Positions 49,598 to 58,106 of a stretch of DNA of 64,000 nt are shown here, piece by piece (the first letter of the stretch is position 1; every line of letters starts with the position of its first letter). Under the pieces are notes generated by a model. That model was not told the DNA's origin. It saw only the letters and a list, made by a program, of their open reading frames with translations, and searched no databases. This DNA is from Ruegeria atlantica (GTDB lineage Bacteria; Pseudomonadota; Alphaproteobacteria; Rhodobacterales; Rhodobacteraceae). A program made the position numbers and the translations under genes. The stretch covers positions 496,001 through 560,000 of the forward strand of contig WQBJ01000001.1 of NCBI GenBank assembly GCA_013032095.1, read 5' to 3'.

Positions 49598-50851
49598 CTA
49601 AAGAAAATGCATCCCTGTTCCAACCGCGGCCATTATGATCAGCGTTGTGGCCATTCCCAATTTAAACTTAAAAATCAATAACCCTGCCAGAAGTGTCAGC
49701 CCCAATGCCGTCGGATTCAGGCTGGTTGGAATGGGCCAGGGTATAGTCACCGGTCCCAAAGATTTTTCGGGGATTTCTCGAAAAAGAACGTTCAGGCTGA
49801 ACCAAACGGACAAGTTGAGAATCACGCCGACCACGGCGGCGGTTATACCGTGTAGTGCGGCTGATAATTTGGGACGGGCGGCCAACTGATCCAGATAGGG
49901 GGCGGCGAGGAAGATCCAAAGAAAACAGGGAACGAAAGTGGCCCACAGGGCGACCGCTCCAGCGGCGAAGGCCAACGATGCGCCGCCACTGATCTGCCCG
50001 GTCAGCATTGCCACAAACTGGGTTACCAGAATCAGTGGTCCCGGTGTCGTTTCCGCCAATCCCAACGCGTCGATCATCTGGTCTGTGCTGACCCATTGAT
50101 ACTTGTCCACGACGGTCTGCGTCATGTAAGCCAGCACCGCATAAGCTCCACCAAATGTGACCACGGCCAAACGAGCAAAGAACCAGCCTAAATCGCTTAG
50201 CAGTTTTTGCCCCGTCACGGTAAGGAGCAGTAGTGGCCCCAACCATAATGTTAGCCACAAGCCAGCAGTGCGCATTGTTCCGGTGGCTTTAGGGGCGGTC
50301 TGGGTGCCCAAGGGCTTGGCGTCTCCTTCAAAGGTGACGTACCCCCAGATGGCGGCGGCCAGAATGATCAAGGGGAAGGGGAGGTTGAACGCGAAAATCG
50401 CTAAGAAACCCAGACCCGCGATGGCGCGATGGTGCGCGTCTGTCAGTGCTTTACGCGCTAGATTTCGAAGAGCTTGCAGGACGATGACAATTACTGTGGC
50501 TTTGACGCCCAGAAACCCGGCCTGCACCAATGGAAGGTTGCCGTATGCCGCGTAGAGGCCCATCAAAACCGCGATGACGCAGGCCCCGGGTAAAACGAAG
50601 AGGGCGCCCGCGATCAAACCGCCAGCGACGCCACGCAGGCGCCAGCCAGCATATGTGGCCAACTGCATCGCCTCGGGGCCAGGCAACAGCATGCACAGCG
50701 AAAGGGCCCTCAGATAGGTTTGTTCATCCAGCCAAGGGCGCCGTTCGACCAACTCCTGATGCATCAACGAGATTTGGGCAGCAGGCCCCCCGAATGAAAG
50801 CAAACCAATGCGACCAAACACTTGGAAGAGTTCAGAAAGTGATGGGTTCAT
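49598..50851 (-). CDS. chrA: Chromate transporter ChrA
   Basis: A 417-residue chromate efflux transporter of the CHR superfamily with two repeated halves. The first has FGRIGLLSFGGPAAQISLMH and LLPGPEAMQLATYAGWRLRG near residues 15-65; the second has FARLAVVTFGGAYAVLAYMT near 225. The ATG at 50851 overlaps the stop of the upstream chrB-like gene (ATGA), so the two are coupled. Confidence 0.93.
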   Translation of the reverse strand: MNPSLSELFQVFGRIGLLSFGGPAAQISLMHQELVERRPWLDEQTYLRALSLCMLLPGPEAMQLATYAGWRLRGVAGGLIAGALFVLPGACVIAVLMGLYAAYGNLPLVQAGFLGVKATVIVIVLQALRNLARKALTDAHHRAIAGLGFLAIFAFNLPFPLIILAAAIWGYVTFEGDAKPLGTQTAPKATGTMRTAGLWLTLWLGPLLLLTVTGQKLLSDLGWFFARLAVVTFGGAYAVLAYMTQTVVDKYQWVSTDQMIDALGLAETTPGPLILVTQFVAMLTGQISGGASLAFAAGAVALWATFVPCFLWIFLAAPYLDQLAARPKLSAALHGITAAVVGVILNLSVWFSLNVLFREIPEKSLGPVTIPWPIPTSLNPTALGLTLLAGLLIFKFKLGMATTLIIMAAVGTGMHFL

Positions 50852-51663
50852 GCCTTGCGATCCGTCGGCCAATCGTGACGTTCGTCTTTCCCGTCCCGGG
50901 CCCAGCGGTACAGCGCATCGTATAGATGCAGACCCGCCGCAAGATTCTGATGATCGTCCCGATATTGACGCGATAGGCCAACAGAGACCGCAAGCAAACC
51001 GGCAGCTTCTGGTGCAAGGTCGTGGCGGTTGGTATCGGCAGCTCGAATAACAGTCGCGAGACGGTCCAACGCGGGGGTACGCAGCTGGAACTCGTCCAGC
51101 ATGGTATCAAAGGTGCAGCGGTCCTGTCGGTGGGACCAGAAGGTATCCTCGATATCGAATGGAGTGGCATCAAACACCTCGGCCGCAGACAGGACCTCGG
51201 ACGGGGCTACGAACAGAAATTGCGCGTCAGGATCAACGAAACGAAGGATGAGCCAAGGGCAGGCGATCCGGTCAATCTTGGGCCGGTGACGAGTGACCCA
51301 TACAGAAGGGACATTGCTATGTTTTGGCACTGCTGCGGCTGGAACGCGTGGCGCGTCCGGAAGATCTCGCCAAGCAAACATGCCGCCTTCGAGGTATTCA
51401 GCTTCGCACCCTTTGCTGCGCAGCCACGAGACAAGCCCTTGGCTGAGTTTTTTCCCTTTTTGACAAATGATGACGACCGCGTGGTTCCCAATCCGCTCAA
51501 CTATGCCCTCGATATCCTTGGCGGAGTGGCGGACAGAGCCGGGGATCAGGTAGGGGTCGGCGTCAAAATCCGAGTCTATACGTATATCGACCAACACCGG
51601 AGCCTGAGGCGTTCCGATCAGGCGCATCAGTTGTTTTTCAGTGATTGAATTGGGCGCAGGCAT
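50848..51663 (-). CDS. Rhodanese-ChrB chromate-resistance protein
   Basis: A 271-residue two-domain protein. Residues 1-105 form a rhodanese-like domain with the cysteine in VVIICQKGKKLSQGLVSW (near residue 68). Residues from about 120 on form a ChrB domain (VWVTRHRPKIDRIACPWLI, then FDTMLDEFQL and AADTNRHDLAPEAAGL), which regulates or supports chrA in other bacteria. A GGAGA site supports the ATG at 51663 over an upstream ATG. It is coupled to chrA by a 4-bp overlap. Confidence 0.88.
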   Translation of the reverse strand: MPAPNSITEKQLMRLIGTPQAPVLVDIRIDSDFDADPYLIPGSVRHSAKDIEGIVERIGNHAVVIICQKGKKLSQGLVSWLRSKGCEAEYLEGGMFAWRDLPDAPRVPAAAVPKHSNVPSVWVTRHRPKIDRIACPWLILRFVDPDAQFLFVAPSEVLSAAEVFDATPFDIEDTFWSHRQDRCTFDTMLDEFQLRTPALDRLATVIRAADTNRHDLAPEAAGLLAVSVGLSRQYRDDHQNLAAGLHLYDALYRWARDGKDERHDWPTDRKA

Positions 51664-51791
51664 AGCATGTCTCCTGATCTGAGCGGATACATGCGAAACT
51701 TGGGCTGACGCCTCACGGGGCGTTCGCAATCTTACCCCATGATCTTTGCATACGTGCAAGCTCCAAAGGGGTCAAGATTGCGATTTAGGCT

Positions 51792-53080: not shown

Positions 53081-53812
53081 TCAAGCGGGTTTGCGGTGCT
53101 GTTGCGCTACGTCTTGCGCCAGCTTACGCGTGTACTTTTCAAGCTCAACCAGCGCTACGTCCACTTTGTGCGCGTCGTGAGCTTCCAGCGCGTCGGCAAT
53201 CTGGCTATGCAGGGCGATGATCTCTTCACGCGACCGCGCTGAGAAGGTGATCATGTTCATCAAGGGCTGCATGGCCTCGACGGCCCCGGCCAATTGGTAG
53301 GACAAAACCGGGTTGCCCGCACCATCGACCAGAGAACGGTGAAACGAGACGTCAGAGGCGCAGAAGGCTTCATCCGTCAGGTCAGGTTGTGCCTGCCGAA
53401 AAATCTCGGCCCGCATTGTTGCCAGTTGATCGGCGGACCGGCGTTGTGCCGACAGGGGGGCGCAGGCGCGTTCCAGAGCAAACCGGGCCTCGCAGGCTGT
53501 ATCGAAACTGACGGCATTCATCGACAGTAGCAGGGTCGAAGTCGTGACCTGCTGTGAATATGCGTCTTCAAAGCTGATCCTATTGACAAAAGCACCGCCG
53601 CTGGCGCCGCGTTGAGTTCGGATCAACGACTGCGCGGCGAGGCGTTTTAATGCTTCGCGCACCGTCGGGCGGGACACCTGAAACTGGTCCGAAAGTTCCG
53701 CTTCGGACGGCAAACGCTCATCCACGATCAGTTTGCCCGAGATGATGGCGTCACGAATGGCCTGCGCGATCTGCGCGGACAAATCGACAGATTTTTGGGG
53801 TTTGATTTTCAT
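53081..53812 (-). CDS. GntR/FadR-family regulator near the DMSP genes
   Basis: A 243-residue FadR-type GntR regulator. The winged helix is in residues 1-72 (RLPSEAELSDQFQVSRPTVR, then ALKRLAAQSLIRTQRGASGG) and the FCD ligand domain follows, with SDVSFHRSLVDGAGNPVL and ALHSQIADALEAHDA carrying the metal-binding aspartate and histidines. It is divergent from the operon DUF2182-DUF1326-DinB-dmdA with 85 bp between starts. From that position it probably responds to DMSP, acrylate or a CoA derivative of them, which is inference. Confidence 0.9.
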   Translation of the reverse strand: MKIKPQKSVDLSAQIAQAIRDAIISGKLIVDERLPSEAELSDQFQVSRPTVREALKRLAAQSLIRTQRGASGGAFVNRISFEDAYSQQVTTSTLLLSMNAVSFDTACEARFALERACAPLSAQRRSADQLATMRAEIFRQAQPDLTDEAFCASDVSFHRSLVDGAGNPVLSYQLAGAVEAMQPLMNMITFSARSREEIIALHSQIADALEAHDAHKVDVALVELEKYTRKLAQDVAQQHRKPA

Positions 53813-53841
53813 ATTCCGGGGTCGCCTGAGAAATTTTATTT

Positions 53842-53867
53842 GTCTGACATTTAAAAGTCTGACATTT
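53842..53867. promoter_or_regulatory. Two GTCTGAC operator-like repeats
   Basis: GTCTGACATTT occurs twice (53842-53852 and 53857-53867), 15 bp apart. GTCTGAC fits the GT-N3-AC core used by FadR-type GntR proteins; the first lies in TGTCTGACA, an odd palindrome. The pair sits midway between the GntR gene and the DUF2182 gene, so it is the expected binding site. Confidence 0.6.
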
Positions 53868-53897
53868 GAAAAGCAAGGACTGAGTCGGGAGGGACAG

Positions 53898-54689
53898 GTG
53901 AGTCGCGCAGTTCTACGCAGCGGATTGTGGCTGGGGTTCTATGTCCTGATCCTGTGGGCGTGGTGGATGATGTTCACCATGAGCCGCGATATGGATCTGG
54001 ATTGGATCGGTCGACCAGGCCCGATGGGTCAGGCGATGGCGGCTATGGACCCTCGCATGGATATGTACATGCCAATGGCCGAGTTTGGGCCTCTGTTCTG
54101 GATGTGGGGCATTATGATGGCGGCGATGATGTTGCCGACTCTGGTGCCAACTTTACGCAGCTACGACGATCTCATCCACAGCGCCAATGGCACCCGTGTT
54201 GGGTGGTTGGGAGTTCTGGCCGGGTATTTCATTGTCTGGGTCGGGTTTGCAGCTTTGATCACAGGCGTTCAGTTGGCTCTGCTGTTCGGAGGGATCGTAG
54301 ACATGCTCGGCATCGCCAAATCAGGCCTGTTTTCCGGAGGCCTGATGATCGCGGTCGGCGCGTTTCAATTCACCCGCGCGAAAGAGGTCTGTCACGGCAT
54401 CTGCCATGCCCCTATGACGTATTTCTTAGGCCACTGGAAAACCGGGTTCCTTGGTGGCCTACGAATGGGGCTGGGGCTGGGGGCTTTCTGCGTCGGCTGC
54501 TGTTGGGGCTTCATGGCGCTTGGCTTTGTTGGTGGAGTCATGAGCCTGTTGTGGATGGGTCTGGCTACACTGTTCATGGTTCTGGAGAAACTACCTCAGA
54601 TCGGTCACGCGGTGACGCGACCGATGGGGTTTGCTCTTATTGCAGGTGGTCTTACCCTGCTGATCTATCCCTTTACTTTTGGAGGATAA
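53898..54689 (+). CDS. DUF2182 methionine-rich membrane protein
   Basis: A 263-residue protein with six or seven membrane helices of the DUF2182 family. It is rich in methionine: DPRMDMYMPMAEF and WMWGIMMAAMMLPTLVP near residues 50-80, and CHGICHAP and CVGCCWGFMALG later add paired cysteines and histidine. Family members are annotated as predicted metal-binding integral membrane proteins. The GTG at 53898 with a GGGAGG site is the best start; the longer frame to 53733 lies in the GntR gene. It is the first gene of the dmdA operon. Confidence 0.85.
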   Translation: MSRAVLRSGLWLGFYVLILWAWWMMFTMSRDMDLDWIGRPGPMGQAMAAMDPRMDMYMPMAEFGPLFWMWGIMMAAMMLPTLVPTLRSYDDLIHSANGTRVGWLGVLAGYFIVWVGFAALITGVQLALLFGGIVDMLGIAKSGLFSGGLMIAVGAFQFTRAKEVCHGICHAPMTYFLGHWKTGFLGGLRMGLGLGAFCVGCCWGFMALGFVGGVMSLLWMGLATLFMVLEKLPQIGHAVTRPMGFALIAGGLTLLIYPFTFGG

Positions 54690-54693
54690 GTAT

Positions 54694-55398
54694 ATGGCAA
54701 AAAACCGGAAACCCGAGGCTGACAGGCTGCCTATCAGCCAGCGCATCGACAGCCGTATGCCCAATCCCAAAAGGCGTGAGATGAGCCCGACAGACTGGGC
54801 TATCAAGGGGGAATTGATCCTGAATTGCTCTTGCGATGTATTCTGTCCATGCGTGGTATCGCTGGGTGCGCATCCTCCGACCGAGGGGCACTGCCACGCT
54901 TGGATGGGTGTAATCATCGACGAAGGTCACTACGAAGGTGAGGATCTGTCAGGTCTGAACGTAGGCTTGTTGGTAGATATTCCGGGCCGCATGGGAGAGG
55001 GCCAGTGGAAGGTCGCCGCCTATGTCGATGAACGCGCCAGCGGCAAGGCTTACAACGGATTGCTGCAAATCTTCAGCGGTCAGGCAGGTGGCACCACCGG
55101 ACTGTTCACAATGTTGGTGAGTGAGATCATTGGGGCCGAACGCGCTCCGGTCCAGATCGAGCGGGACGGCAACAAGCGCCGCATCATCATCGGCCGTAAG
55201 ATTCAGGGCGAGATCGAGATGCTGGCCGGTAAGGACGCGGATCATCCGGTGATGGTCACAAACTCAAAATACTGGATGGGACCGGATATCATCGTGGCGC
55301 GGGGAACCAAGTCCAAGGTGCGGGACTATGGTCGTGTGTGGGATTTTGGCGGTAAGTCGGCCGAAATTTGTCCGATAGAATGGCAGGGTCCGAAATGA
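54694..55398 (+). CDS. DUF1326 cysteine-motif protein
   Basis: A 234-residue protein of the DUF1326 family. A striking NCSCDVFCPCVVSLGAHPPTE segment near residue 48 holds four cysteines in a CxC-x3-CxC order that looks like a metal or cluster site. Later the protein is a beta-rich domain with no membrane span. It follows DUF2182 by 4 bp, and the two families occur together elsewhere, so they probably work as a pair. GGAGG precedes the ATG. Confidence 0.85.
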   Translation: MAKNRKPEADRLPISQRIDSRMPNPKRREMSPTDWAIKGELILNCSCDVFCPCVVSLGAHPPTEGHCHAWMGVIIDEGHYEGEDLSGLNVGLLVDIPGRMGEGQWKVAAYVDERASGKAYNGLLQIFSGQAGGTTGLFTMLVSEIIGAERAPVQIERDGNKRRIIIGRKIQGEIEMLAGKDADHPVMVTNSKYWMGPDIIVARGTKSKVRDYGRVWDFGGKSAEICPIEWQGPK

Positions 55399-55904
55399 TG
55401 ATCACCGGAGCCTACGCGCGGGAGATGGCGCGATATAATCGATGGCAAAACAGTCAGTTATTCGGGTTTCTGCAAGCACTTTCACCCGAAGACCTGAACA
55501 AAGACCGCGGCGCGTTTTTTGGCTCGATCAAGGGCACAGCAAATCATTTGCTTTGGGGCAACTGGATCTGGATCTCGCGCTTTGACAAGGGCGAAGGCCC
55601 AGGGGGCGGTATTCCTGAGAGCGTTTCGCTGTGCTCTGATCTGGCTGAATGGCTGCCGCTGTGTGAAAGGATCGACACCCGTATTTCGGAATGGGCAGAC
55701 TCGCTTGGCGATGCACCATTGACTGGCGAGTTCACATGGTTCTCTGCGGCAAAAGAAGCTGATGTTACATTGCCTTACGCGCAATGCGTGATCCACATGT
55801 TTAATCACCAGACCCATCATCGCGGGCAGCTTCATCAGATGCTGACGGAAACCGGATCGGCTGCACCTGTTAGCGATCTGGTGTTTATGCCTAAGGAGAC
55901 GTAG
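55395..55904 (+). CDS. DinB-family protein
   Basis: A 169-residue DinB-like four-helix protein. The metal-binding histidines are seen in GTANHLLWGNWIW (near residue 50) and in HMFNHQTHHRGQLHQML (near 135), which matches the HxxxH triad of the family. Some members use a thiol cofactor such as glutathione, mycothiol or bacillithiol. It starts inside the DUF1326 stop (ATGATG) and ends next to dmdA (TAG then ATG), so it belongs to the same operon. Confidence 0.85.
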   Translation: MMITGAYAREMARYNRWQNSQLFGFLQALSPEDLNKDRGAFFGSIKGTANHLLWGNWIWISRFDKGEGPGGGIPESVSLCSDLAEWLPLCERIDTRISEWADSLGDAPLTGEFTWFSAAKEADVTLPYAQCVIHMFNHQTHHRGQLHQMLTETGSAAPVSDLVFMPKET

Positions 55905-57008
55905 ATGCCGCAGATTTCCCTATCCCGCCGGTTGCGTCGAACCCCGTTTTCAGAAGGGGTCGAGGCTGCGGGGGTTAAAGGATATACGGTTTACAACCGT
56001 ATGTTATTGCCCACGGTTTTCGAAAGCGTAGAGGCGGACTACCGGCACCTGAAGACCCATGTTCAGGTCTGGGACGTGTCCTGCGAGCGGCAGGTCGAAC
56101 TGCGAGGCCCGGACGCCGCGAAGTTGATGCAGATGCTGACGCCGCGGGACCTGCGGGGGATGTTACCGGGGCAGTGCTTTTACGTGCCCATCGTCGATGA
56201 GACCGGTGGCATGCTAAACGATCCGGTGGCCGTGAAACTCTCGGACGACCGTTGGTGGATTTCGATTGCCGACAGTGACCTGTTGCTGTGGGTCAAAGGC
56301 ATCGCCAACGGATATCGGCTGGACGTGCTGGTGGATGAGCCGGACGTTTCGCCCTTGGCCGTTCAGGGACCGAAGGCGGATGAGTTGATGGCGCGTGTCT
56401 TCGGTAACCGTGTGAGAGATATTCGTTTCTTCAAGTTCGATATGTTTGAGTTCGAAGGTCGTGATCTGGCTGTGGCCCGATCAGGTTATTCCAAACAGGG
56501 CGGGTTCGAGATTTACGTCGAAGGGTCTGAGATCGGTATGCCGCTATGGAACGTTCTGTTTAAGGCAGGCGAGGATCTTCAGGTGCGTGCGGGCTGCCCG
56601 AACCTGATTGAACGGATCGAGGGTGGATTGCTGTCTTACGGCAACGATATGACCGATGATAATACTCCCCATGAATGTGGGTTGGGCAAGTTCTGCAATA
56701 CGCACACGGCCATTGGGTGCATTGGACGGGACGCCCTGCTGCGCGTGACCAAGGAGGGGCCTGTGCAACAAATTCGACCGCTTGCGATTGAAGGCGAACC
56801 AGTTCCGCCCTGTGACAGGCCATGGTCGGTGTTTGCCGGTGGCAAACGGGTGGGGCAGGTGACCTCGGCGGCGTGGTCTCCGGACTTTGAAACCAACGTG
56901 TCAATTGGCATGGTTCGGCTAAGTCATTGGGACGCAGGCACAGAGGTTGAGGTTGAAACCCCAGATGGAATGCGGCGCGCAATAGTGCAGAAGCGGTTCT
57001 GGATTTGA
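55905..57008 (+). CDS. dmdA: DMSP demethylase
   Basis: DmdA moves a methyl group from dimethylsulfoniopropionate to tetrahydrofolate, the first step of the demethylation pathway. The 367-residue protein has the GcvT-type fold; the start (SRRLRRTPFSEGVEAAGVKG, then YNRMLLPTVFES) and the FCNTHTAIGCIGRDAL, RAGCPNLIERIEGGLLSYG and MLNDPVAVKLSDD segments match my recollection of Ruegeria pomeroyi DmdA closely. It starts directly after the DinB-like gene and is followed after 102 bp by acuI, as in other Roseobacters. Confidence 0.9.
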   Translation: MPQISLSRRLRRTPFSEGVEAAGVKGYTVYNRMLLPTVFESVEADYRHLKTHVQVWDVSCERQVELRGPDAAKLMQMLTPRDLRGMLPGQCFYVPIVDETGGMLNDPVAVKLSDDRWWISIADSDLLLWVKGIANGYRLDVLVDEPDVSPLAVQGPKADELMARVFGNRVRDIRFFKFDMFEFEGRDLAVARSGYSKQGGFEIYVEGSEIGMPLWNVLFKAGEDLQVRAGCPNLIERIEGGLLSYGNDMTDDNTPHECGLGKFCNTHTAIGCIGRDALLRVTKEGPVQQIRPLAIEGEPVPPCDRPWSVFAGGKRVGQVTSAAWSPDFETNVSIGMVRLSHWDAGTEVEVETPDGMRRAIVQKRFWI

Positions 57009-57110: not shown

Positions 57111-58106
57111 ATGTTCAACGCCTTGGTCATGGAAAAGGATGAAGAAAGCGGGCTGGCGAACCCCTCGATCAAGCAACTGTCGTTGGAGGACCTGCCGAAT
57201 GGTGAAGTAACCGTGGCGGTCGAGTATTCCACGGTAAACTACAAGGATGGTTTGTGCCTGTCTGCGAAAGGTGGCGGACTGGTGCGCAACTACCCGCATG
57301 TGCCGGGGATTGACTATGCGGGGACGGTCGAAACGTCGTCGGATGATCGCTACAAGCCCGGTGACAAGGTGGTACTGACAGGCTGGCGCGTGGGCGAGGC
57401 GCATTGGGGTGGATATTCCCAAAAGGCGAATGCCTTGGCCGATTGGCTCGTACCTTTGCCGGACGGTCTGGATGCACGCCAGGCGATGGCCGTGGGGACC
57501 GCAGGGTTCACGGCTATGCTCGCGGTCATGGCGCTGGAAGATCATGGAATGAAGAAAGACCACGGGCCGGTTCTCGTGACCGGAGCGGCCGGTGGCGTTG
57601 GTTCTGTGGCGACAGCGATTCTGACCAATCTGGGTTATGAGGTGGCTGCTGTGACCGGCAGACCCGAGGCCGGAGACTATTTGAAGTCCTTGGGCGCCAG
57701 CACGATTGTACCTCGGGATGAACTAAACGAGACGACAAAGCGCCCTTTGGAAAGCGAAACATGGGCTGGCTGTGTTGATGCCGTTGGTGGCGAGATGCTG
57801 GCGCGAGTGTTGGGGCAGATGAAATACGGTGCCTCTGTTGCTGCTGTCGGTCTTGCCGGTGGGGCGGCTTTGCCGGCAACGGTCATTCCGTTCCTCCTCC
57901 GCGGTGTCAATCTGCTGGGCATCGACAGCGTGATGCAACCTTACGACAATCGTGTGCGGGCATGGCAGCGCGTCGCCACGGACCTACCTATGGACAAGCT
58001 GGAAGCGATGGTCCAACCGGCAACCCTAAGCGACTTGCCACAATTGGGTGCCGATATTCTTGGTGGAAAGGTCAAAGGACGCGTTGTCGTTGATGTAAAC
58101 GCCTGA
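57111..58106 (+). CDS. acuI: Acrylyl-CoA reductase
   Basis: AcuI reduces the toxic acrylyl-CoA made from DMSP or acrylate to propionyl-CoA with NADPH. The 331-residue medium-chain reductase has the family start FNALVMEKDEESGLANPSIK, GLCLSAKGGGLVRNYPHVPG near residue 48, the Rossmann motif VLVTGAAGGVGSVATAILTN near 156, and LAGGAALPATVIPFLLRGV. Its location after dmdA fits the usual DMSP gene pair. Propionyl-CoA would feed pathways involving the partial dehydrogenase at the left end only indirectly. Confidence 0.93.
   Translation: MFNALVMEKDEESGLANPSIKQLSLEDLPNGEVTVAVEYSTVNYKDGLCLSAKGGGLVRNYPHVPGIDYAGTVETSSDDRYKPGDKVVLTGWRVGEAHWGGYSQKANALADWLVPLPDGLDARQAMAVGTAGFTAMLAVMALEDHGMKKDHGPVLVTGAAGGVGSVATAILTNLGYEVAAVTGRPEAGDYLKSLGASTIVPRDELNETTKRPLESETWAGCVDAVGGEMLARVLGQMKYGASVAAVGLAGGAALPATVIPFLLRGVNLLGIDSVMQPYDNRVRAWQRVATDLPMDKLEAMVQPATLSDLPQLGADILGGKVKGRVVVDVNA

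Follow-up and report, generated by a model that had tools for sequence, protein, structure and literature searches.

Whether dimethylsulfoniopropionate (DMSP), an algal sulfur compound used by bacteria, is demethylated or cleaved governs the amounts of marine sulfur that pass into the food web or escape as dimethyl sulfide. The window analysed here, a 64,000-nucleotide stretch of the Ruegeria atlantica genome (contig WQBJ01000001.1), contains dmdA, the gene for DMSP demethylase, on the plus strand at 55905-57008 (NF009133, 694 bits, cut-off 410). Three genes lie ahead of it on the same strand: one for a PpoB2 membrane protein (PF09948, formerly DUF2182), a putative copper chaperone, at 53898-54689 with a GTG start (195.3 bits against a gathering cut-off of 28.7); one for a DUF1326 protein (PF07040) with a CxCx3CxC-x13-C cysteine motif at 54694-55398 (180.9 bits, gathering cut-off 25); and one for a DinB family protein (PF05163), an optional member of the set, at 55395-55904 (91.8 bits, cut-off 23). 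The last gene of the conserved set, acuI, encodes acryloyl-CoA reductase and lies directly 3′ of dmdA on the same strand, at 57111-58106. Its product is over the cut-off of the acrylyl-CoA reductase subfamily (TIGR02823, 445 against 297 bits) and 20 bits under that of the NCBIfam AcuI equivalog (NF051456, 420 against 440 bits). A GntR family regulator with an FCD domain (FadR type; Pfam GntR 67.7 bits, FCD 66.7 bits) is encoded divergently on the minus strand at 53081-53812.

The junctions from ppoB2 through DUF1326, dinB and dmdA to acuI measure +4, -4, 0 and 102 bp. The original prediction, made from the letters alone, had described a run of DUF2182, DUF1326, DinB and dmdA divergent from a FadR-type regulator, and Pfam and NCBIfam models match all of these families. 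Its gene order was right, and the set extends one gene further, to acuI; the gaps of 0-4 bp that it gave hold for two junctions, and at the third the genes overlap.

Conservation of the gene set

The ppoB2-DUF1326 pair heads the dmdA operon in most Roseobacter-group loci examined, and the gene set and its conservation are well supported. In all 54 Ruegeria genomes of the genus set, the window's own included, a DUF1326 gene precedes a dmdA of the same strand by 51-572 bp, as measured between domain matches; 58 dmdA rows of the genus exceed the cut-off, and the four that are unlinked to DUF1326 are all second copies. The family set comprises 295 genomes, 125 of them with dmdA over the cut-off, and flanks were retrieved for 97 dmdA loci, among them the second dmdA copy of the window's own genome. 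At the 80 high-scoring loci (dmdA of at least 641 bits, other genera, each a different genus), PpoB2 and DUF1326 lie upstream of dmdA in 72, acuI lies downstream in 70, a divergent GntR homologue is present in 66 and DinB lies upstream in 41. The original prediction had named a lack of co-occurrence near dmdA in relatives as the result that would count against it; these genus and family counts show co-occurrence instead.

Comparable figures come from the best 80 of 366 named loci, where the pair accompanies dmdA in 72 and the divergent GntR homologue is found in all 80. The gene orders in this set are 56 with DinB, 14 without DinB, seven with regulator, dmdA and acuI only, and three others; the closest DmdA proteins in it (R. 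arenilitoris, R. atlantica) are 95% identical to that of the window. Ruegeria lacuscaerulensis ITI-1157 (L219), a culturable strain, carries the full set including DinB. DinB is missing in 57 of 124 rows and is thus an optional, not a core, member, so that the idea of three extra genes forming one module was rejected. The DinB histidine triad pointed out in the original prediction is present as His51, His138 and His142 (HxxxH at 138/142), each kept in at least 95% of 60 aligned rows; a PDB sequence search with DinB gave nothing credible.

The family count of 72 consists of 71 loci found by script and one (L088) found by reading; L and G numbers denote loci and genomes of our set. The script missed DUF1326 in L088, L179 and L270 because stop-to-stop frames overlap, and these three were added by reading; a codon-usage gene caller returned zero genes for L314 and L321, and at several loci it overlooked DUF1326. 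A lower-scoring set comprises 16 loci with dmdA of 577-626 bits, own copy excluded. Excluded from the flank comparison were ten dmdA rows from other genera that score above 577 bits (G210, G259, G075, G208, G148, G339, G167, G308, G209 and G130) and all rows below 577 bits. The second dmdA of the window's genome (L166, G000:C240:45466-46563; 616 bits) adjoins an acyl-CoA synthetase gene and is without the pair.

Operators and regulator

Two operator-like sites lie between the regulator gene and ppoB2. The first, at 53841-53849, is the palindrome TGTC-T-GACA (TGTCTGACA), which is conserved in position and enriched; the second, at 53856-53864, reads AGTC-T-GACA (AGTCTGACA) with a palindromic GTC-T-GAC core, and their starts are 15 bp apart. 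The original prediction had noticed them as two GTCTGAC repeats, and they prove to belong to a conserved class of GTC-W-GAC palindromes found in 63 of 70 regulator-PpoB2 regions. In these regions the density of GTC[AT]GAC is 4.14 per kb, compared with 0.11 per kb in the 1.40 Mb of flanks from the 97 loci, an enrichment of about 36-fold. The doublet arrangement is likewise concentrated there, with 37 doublets of 15-bp spacing in 27 kb of regulator-PpoB2 DNA as against two in the 1.40 Mb of flanks. Palindromes also stand ahead of dmdA or dinB-dmdA in ten of 12 rows that have no pair (L092 and L252 are probably one locus); among these 12, none was found upstream of dmdA in L164 and L280.

A strict 13-mer version of the motif fits the first site of the Ruegeria operon, not the second, and occurs at three places in its own genome: this operon, an ABC-transporter gene boundary (L205) and a position just 3′ of a glucose-6-phosphate-isomerase-like gene (L206), the last two named from translations only. 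Neither further place is convincing, which leaves a wide regulon unsupported and points to the GntR/FCD protein as a local regulator. A general promoter and terminator scan of the 64-kb stretch gave results at chance level.

PpoB2 and DUF1326 proteins

The Pfam name of PF09948 is PpoB2, copper chaperone. The PpoB2 protein of the window contains 9.9% methionine (26 of 263 residues) and several hydrophobic stretches, in agreement with its earlier description as methionine-rich and membrane-bound, and alignments show invariant Cys165, Cys169, Cys198, Cys201 and Cys202 together with several invariant methionines. Its predicted structure is a helical model, for which the fold search returned no match at E<=0.001 (best VIA Z 5.9) and no credible PDB match; a PDB sequence search gave nothing credible either. 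According to the accessible text of PMC2855505, the PpoB2 of Marinomonas delivers copper to tyrosinase and was the first member of COG5486 to be given a role. A Pfam search matched no gene of the Ruegeria operon to a tyrosinase family.

Outside the family but within the same phylum, PpoB2 adjoins DUF1326 in 22 of 23 loci, in either order (exception L330); the 23 loci represent 16 genomes, and 12 of them come from one genus. The pair is also carried by a plasmid of Rhodococcus sp. M8-50 (L356), a strain from nitrile-contaminated soil, where it sits after a gene for an aliphatic amidase. On a Sulfitobacter plasmid, a PpoB2 51% identical to that of the window is encoded near a heavy-metal P-type ATPase, cueR and glutaredoxin.

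The CxC-x3-CxC motif reported for the second protein of the run corresponds to Cys45, Cys47, Cys51 and Cys53 of DUF1326, which with Cys67 are among its invariant residues and complete the CxCx3CxC-x13-C pattern. An AlphaFold2 model of DUF1326 has a mean pLDDT (predicted local distance difference test) of 77, with residues 54-62 of the cysteine region poorly defined. In VIA-align, 11 acetoacetate-decarboxylase-like entries rank first (Z 9.7-10.4, next row 8.5), with root mean square deviations of 3.4-4.8 over 154-161 residues; Foldseek gives the model low TM-scores of 0.33-0.43. MppR is presumably among these entries. The acetoacetate decarboxylase family has a catalytic Schiff-base lysine. In DUF1326, an alignment of 16 proteins shows Lys206 without variation, and one of 19 shows it conserved at 90% or more; Lys38 reaches at least 90% in both alignments; across 104 rows including paralogues, no lysine reaches 93%. 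The acetoacetate-decarboxylase-like barrel is a predicted fold and serves as a fold lead, not as family membership. A PDB sequence search with DUF1326 gave nothing credible. Lone DUF1326 genes without PpoB2 occur in three Ruegeria genomes (L181, L202, L203), near genes for a 1-Cys peroxiredoxin-type protein and polynucleotide phosphorylase, or homologues by clustering.

Proposed function of the operon

The reading we favour, with confidence evenly divided for and against, is that of a conserved DMSP/acrylate operon headed by a pair of copper-handling genes. The repression, effector, copper binding, direction of transfer and purpose given below are what we infer. Repression of the divergent promoter is most likely the task of the FCD-type GntR protein, bound to the twin GTCWGAC palindromes, from which acrylate or a CoA derivative would release it when DMSP is degraded. 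PpoB2, as a membrane protein lined with methionine and cysteine, may then transport Cu(I) at or through the membrane and pass it on to DUF1326, which could bind it in the CxCx3CxC-x13-C cluster and would be either a cytosolic carrier or buffer or a copper protein that acts on an intermediate of the pathway. In this way the cell would benefit by having copper controlled or supplied when methanethiol from demethylation and thiol-attacking acrylate or acryloyl-CoA from cleavage arise.

Acrylate is the better-supported inducer by analogy with R. pomeroyi, because in that species acrylate and DMSP induce fusions to dmdA and acuI, whereas 3-methylmercaptopropionate (MMPA) does not. In the accessible text of PMC3338564, expression of an R. 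pomeroyi acuI-lacZ fusion increases about 9-fold on DMSP and 14-fold on acrylate, MMPA induces neither the dmdA nor the acuI fusion, and co-transcription and acrylate induction of dmdA-acuI are reported.

A bolder form of the proposal, which we consider tentative and somewhat unlikely, is that DUF1326 represents a copper protein not characterised before, perhaps an enzyme with an acetoacetate-decarboxylase-like barrel, loaded by PpoB2 and performing or protecting a copper-dependent DMSP/acrylate step absent from pathway maps.

Linkage to dmdA and acuI

The DUF1326 proteins linked to this operon form a clade that we defined by profile search (E<=1e-75). One copy each is present in 139 of the 295 family genomes: 106 genomes have both linked DUF1326 and dmdA, 19 have dmdA only, 33 have DUF1326 only and 137 have neither (Fisher p 1.7e-30, ignoring kinship). 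For the genomes without dmdA, 32 of 33 loci were retrieved, G232 being excluded for a partial gene at a contig start. Here acuI is downstream on the same strand in 25, divergent on the other side in two, cut off by a contig edge in two and not in reach in three. In L288, which is among the 25, DUF1326 and acuI are separated by two dmdA-like pieces, which suggests loss of dmdA. In two genomes that have both dmdA and linked DUF1326, dmdA stands alone and the pair lies beside acuI (G180: L122, L320; G054: L172, L319). Since acuI is present in 267 of the 295 genomes (E<=1e-80), its presence tells little and only its position counts. DMSP lyases of PF16867, the one lyase family searched, were found in 17 of the 33 dmdA-less genomes with linked DUF1326 and in 45 of the 137 without it, a weak difference (p 0.069).

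Several observations weigh against the favoured reading. Neither dmdA nor DUF1326 needs the other, as 33 of the 295 genomes have linked DUF1326 with no dmdA over the cut-off and 19 of the 125 dmdA genomes have no linked DUF1326. The pair is present at just eight of the 16 lower-scoring loci, and none is found within 5 kb of the plasmid dmdA cluster of P. inhibens DSM 17395, which consists of acyl-CoA dehydrogenase, dmdD, an AMP-binding protein and dmdA. In five dmdA genomes the pair stands apart, with neither dmdA nor acuI in reach (L321-L325, several on short contigs). Seven loci have the pair and dmdA with no acuI nearby (L107, L129, L144, L146, L150, L156, L175), L156 having DUF1326 alone instead of the pair, and five of 20 listed genomes lacking acuI have both dmdA and linked DUF1326; these same two counts told against treating the pair as a simple acuI module. 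The genome of the window holds two further pairs and one lone DUF1326 whose flanks contain neither dmdA nor acuI, so the pair as such is general. The Sulfitobacter plasmid has no DUF1326 listed beside its PpoB2, and S. meliloti pSymA has a DUF1326 with no DUF2182 listed in a gene table that is incomplete. Finally, DUF1326 could be a zinc or disulfide protein, as cysteine clusters do not identify the metal.

As pair, dmdA and acuI are each separable in some loci, what is constant is the promoter region together with DMSP/acrylate genes, not one enzyme. The original prediction of a metal-handling module tied to DMSP therefore needs narrowing: it fits PpoB2 and DUF1326, because the PpoB2 family has a reported copper-transfer role, DinB is unsupported as a core member, and the tie is to the promoter and dmdA/acuI rather than to DmdA alone.

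In several of the seven loci without acuI an acyl-CoA synthetase gene lies in between. More generally, such a gene (AMP-binding, a homologue of one in Marinovum) was seen between DUF1326 and dmdA in L107, L111, L129, L144, L146, L150 and L156, in several genera.

Alternative explanations

The pair might instead be a general copper or thiol stress module that by ancestry stands at the operon head and shares the promoter only, with no special role in DMSP or acrylate use. Other PpoB2-DUF1326 pairs in unrelated surroundings are consistent with this, as is the DUF1326 tree of 124 rows, on which 26 changes of dmdA state are counted, a number inside the spread of 200 label shuffles (25-39, mean 33.5); the tree is a quick one of a short protein, on which changes are probably over-counted. 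The linked clade, however, is single-copy where it occurs and associated with dmdA, and many genera retain both the gene order and the operators, for which reason we judge this explanation unlikely. Quite unlikely, in our estimate, is that DUF1326 is itself an enzyme, using copper or zinc in an acetoacetate-decarboxylase-like fold to act on acrylate, acryloyl-CoA, 3-hydroxypropionate or a methylthio intermediate, with PpoB2 as its private metallochaperone, as for the Marinomonas tyrosinase. That PpoB2 so regularly neighbours DUF1326 outside the family, that 11 entries of this fold top the structural comparison and that acuI follows the pair in 25 of 32 dmdA-less loci would all fit such an enzyme, but the Foldseek TM-scores are low, a common fold proves no function, and no lysine is conserved at 93% or more over the 104 rows, even though Lys206 is invariant in 16.

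A third explanation makes the pair a dedicated copper supply for the methanethiol oxidase SBP56/MtoX, the copper enzyme that removes the methanethiol formed after DMSP demethylation. MtoX contains copper, and its gene often occurs with SCO1/SenC and MauG genes, according to the accessible text of PMC5739008. A scan of 235 loci placed SBP56 in the flanks of 32, with some genomes represented twice and one copy checked with Pfam. In 31 of these it is situated beyond gntR, in the remaining one it follows a dmdA that has no pair, and in Marinovum it comes after the AcuI-like gene. Among dmdA-less genomes, SBP56 (E<=1e-100) is present in eight of 33 with linked DUF1326 and 11 of 137 without (Fisher p 0.014, ignoring kinship). 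Yet it is missing from 25 of those 33 and from 43 of the 106 dmdA genomes with linked DUF1326, and it was rejected as a general client. Among dmdA genomes its frequency hardly depends on linked DUF1326 (63 of 106 with, nine of 19 without, p 0.45), it is absent from the flanks of all 40 loci L287-L326, and in the window's genome it is on a different contig. A dedicated supply is thus distinctly improbable, and SBP56 may be a client in some strains only. In L184 and L355, SBP56 is followed by an open reading frame (ORF) of 216-218 amino acids with no Pfam match; in L216, a second nearby ORF of this size encodes a TENA/THI-4/PQQC-family protein.

Relation to known systems

The Ruegeria operon shares its dmdA-acuI end with the Roseobacter operon of Todd et al. 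(2012, PMC3338564), in which dmdA is followed by acuI in all but two of 26 dmdA-containing Roseobacters and which is acrylate-responsive in R. pomeroyi DSS-3. It differs in the three genes ahead of dmdA, which the accessible text of that paper does not mention, and in operators that lie upstream of ppoB2. DSS-3 may lack the pair, because the promoter fragment cloned there is just about 350 bp. The Marinomonas mediterranea ppoB1-ppoB2 locus (PMC2855505, accessible text) likewise encodes a copper-transfer membrane protein of the PpoB2 family beside a partner, which is a tyrosinase there and a DUF1326 neighbour here. In the mtoX-SCO1/senC-mauG operon (PMC5739008, accessible text), a putative copper-delivery protein is encoded with a methanethiol-oxidation enzyme; the copper protein is of another family, and SBP56 adjoins the present operon in some genomes only.

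A further precedent is the pMaD9 cluster of Marinovum algicola DG 898 (CP010864.1), in which the pair (MALG_05028/05029) occurs in the same type of cluster, together with DmdA and an AcuI-like dehydrogenase. An acyl-CoA synthetase lies between DUF1326 and dmdA there, no DinB is listed and SBP56 follows; Antarctobacter has the same gene order. The association of the pair with DMSP is not wholly new, because the GenBank depositor had already labelled both genes 'involved in DMSP breakdown'. In the open-licence literature, no paper found names DUF2182 or DUF1326; PMC2855505 alone was found for COG5486, COG5588, PF09948 and PF07040; and SPO1909-SPO1912 go unmentioned, unlike SPO1913. The accessible parts of PMC4818494, PMC5896138 and PMC4334477 do not mention the pair.

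Copper becomes a testable, as yet unproven, part of the bacterial use of DMSP, because in most loci examined the dmdA operon starts with two genes that resemble a copper-handling pair. If such a pair is indeed part of the operon in much of the Roseobacter group, the supply of copper would be a variable in DMSP use. The little-described DUF2182/PpoB2 and DUF1326 families would also gain a tractable setting, as the operon is short, a regulator with a clear operator is encoded beside it, and culturable strains exist.

Neighbouring genes

To the left of the GntR/FCD regulator lies a DUF4345 gene, both on the minus strand. Further left, at 49598-51759 on the minus strand, are a gene for a protein with Rhodanese and ChrB C-terminal domains and then a chromate-transporter-like ORF, named on resemblance alone; in several loci that have no dmdA, a chromate transporter gene is likewise found upstream of the pair. 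Homologues of BCCT-family transporters, seen downstream of acuI among loci L084-L320, gave 76 matches in the 235 loci scanned, often 2-5 kb past the start of dmdA or DUF1326.

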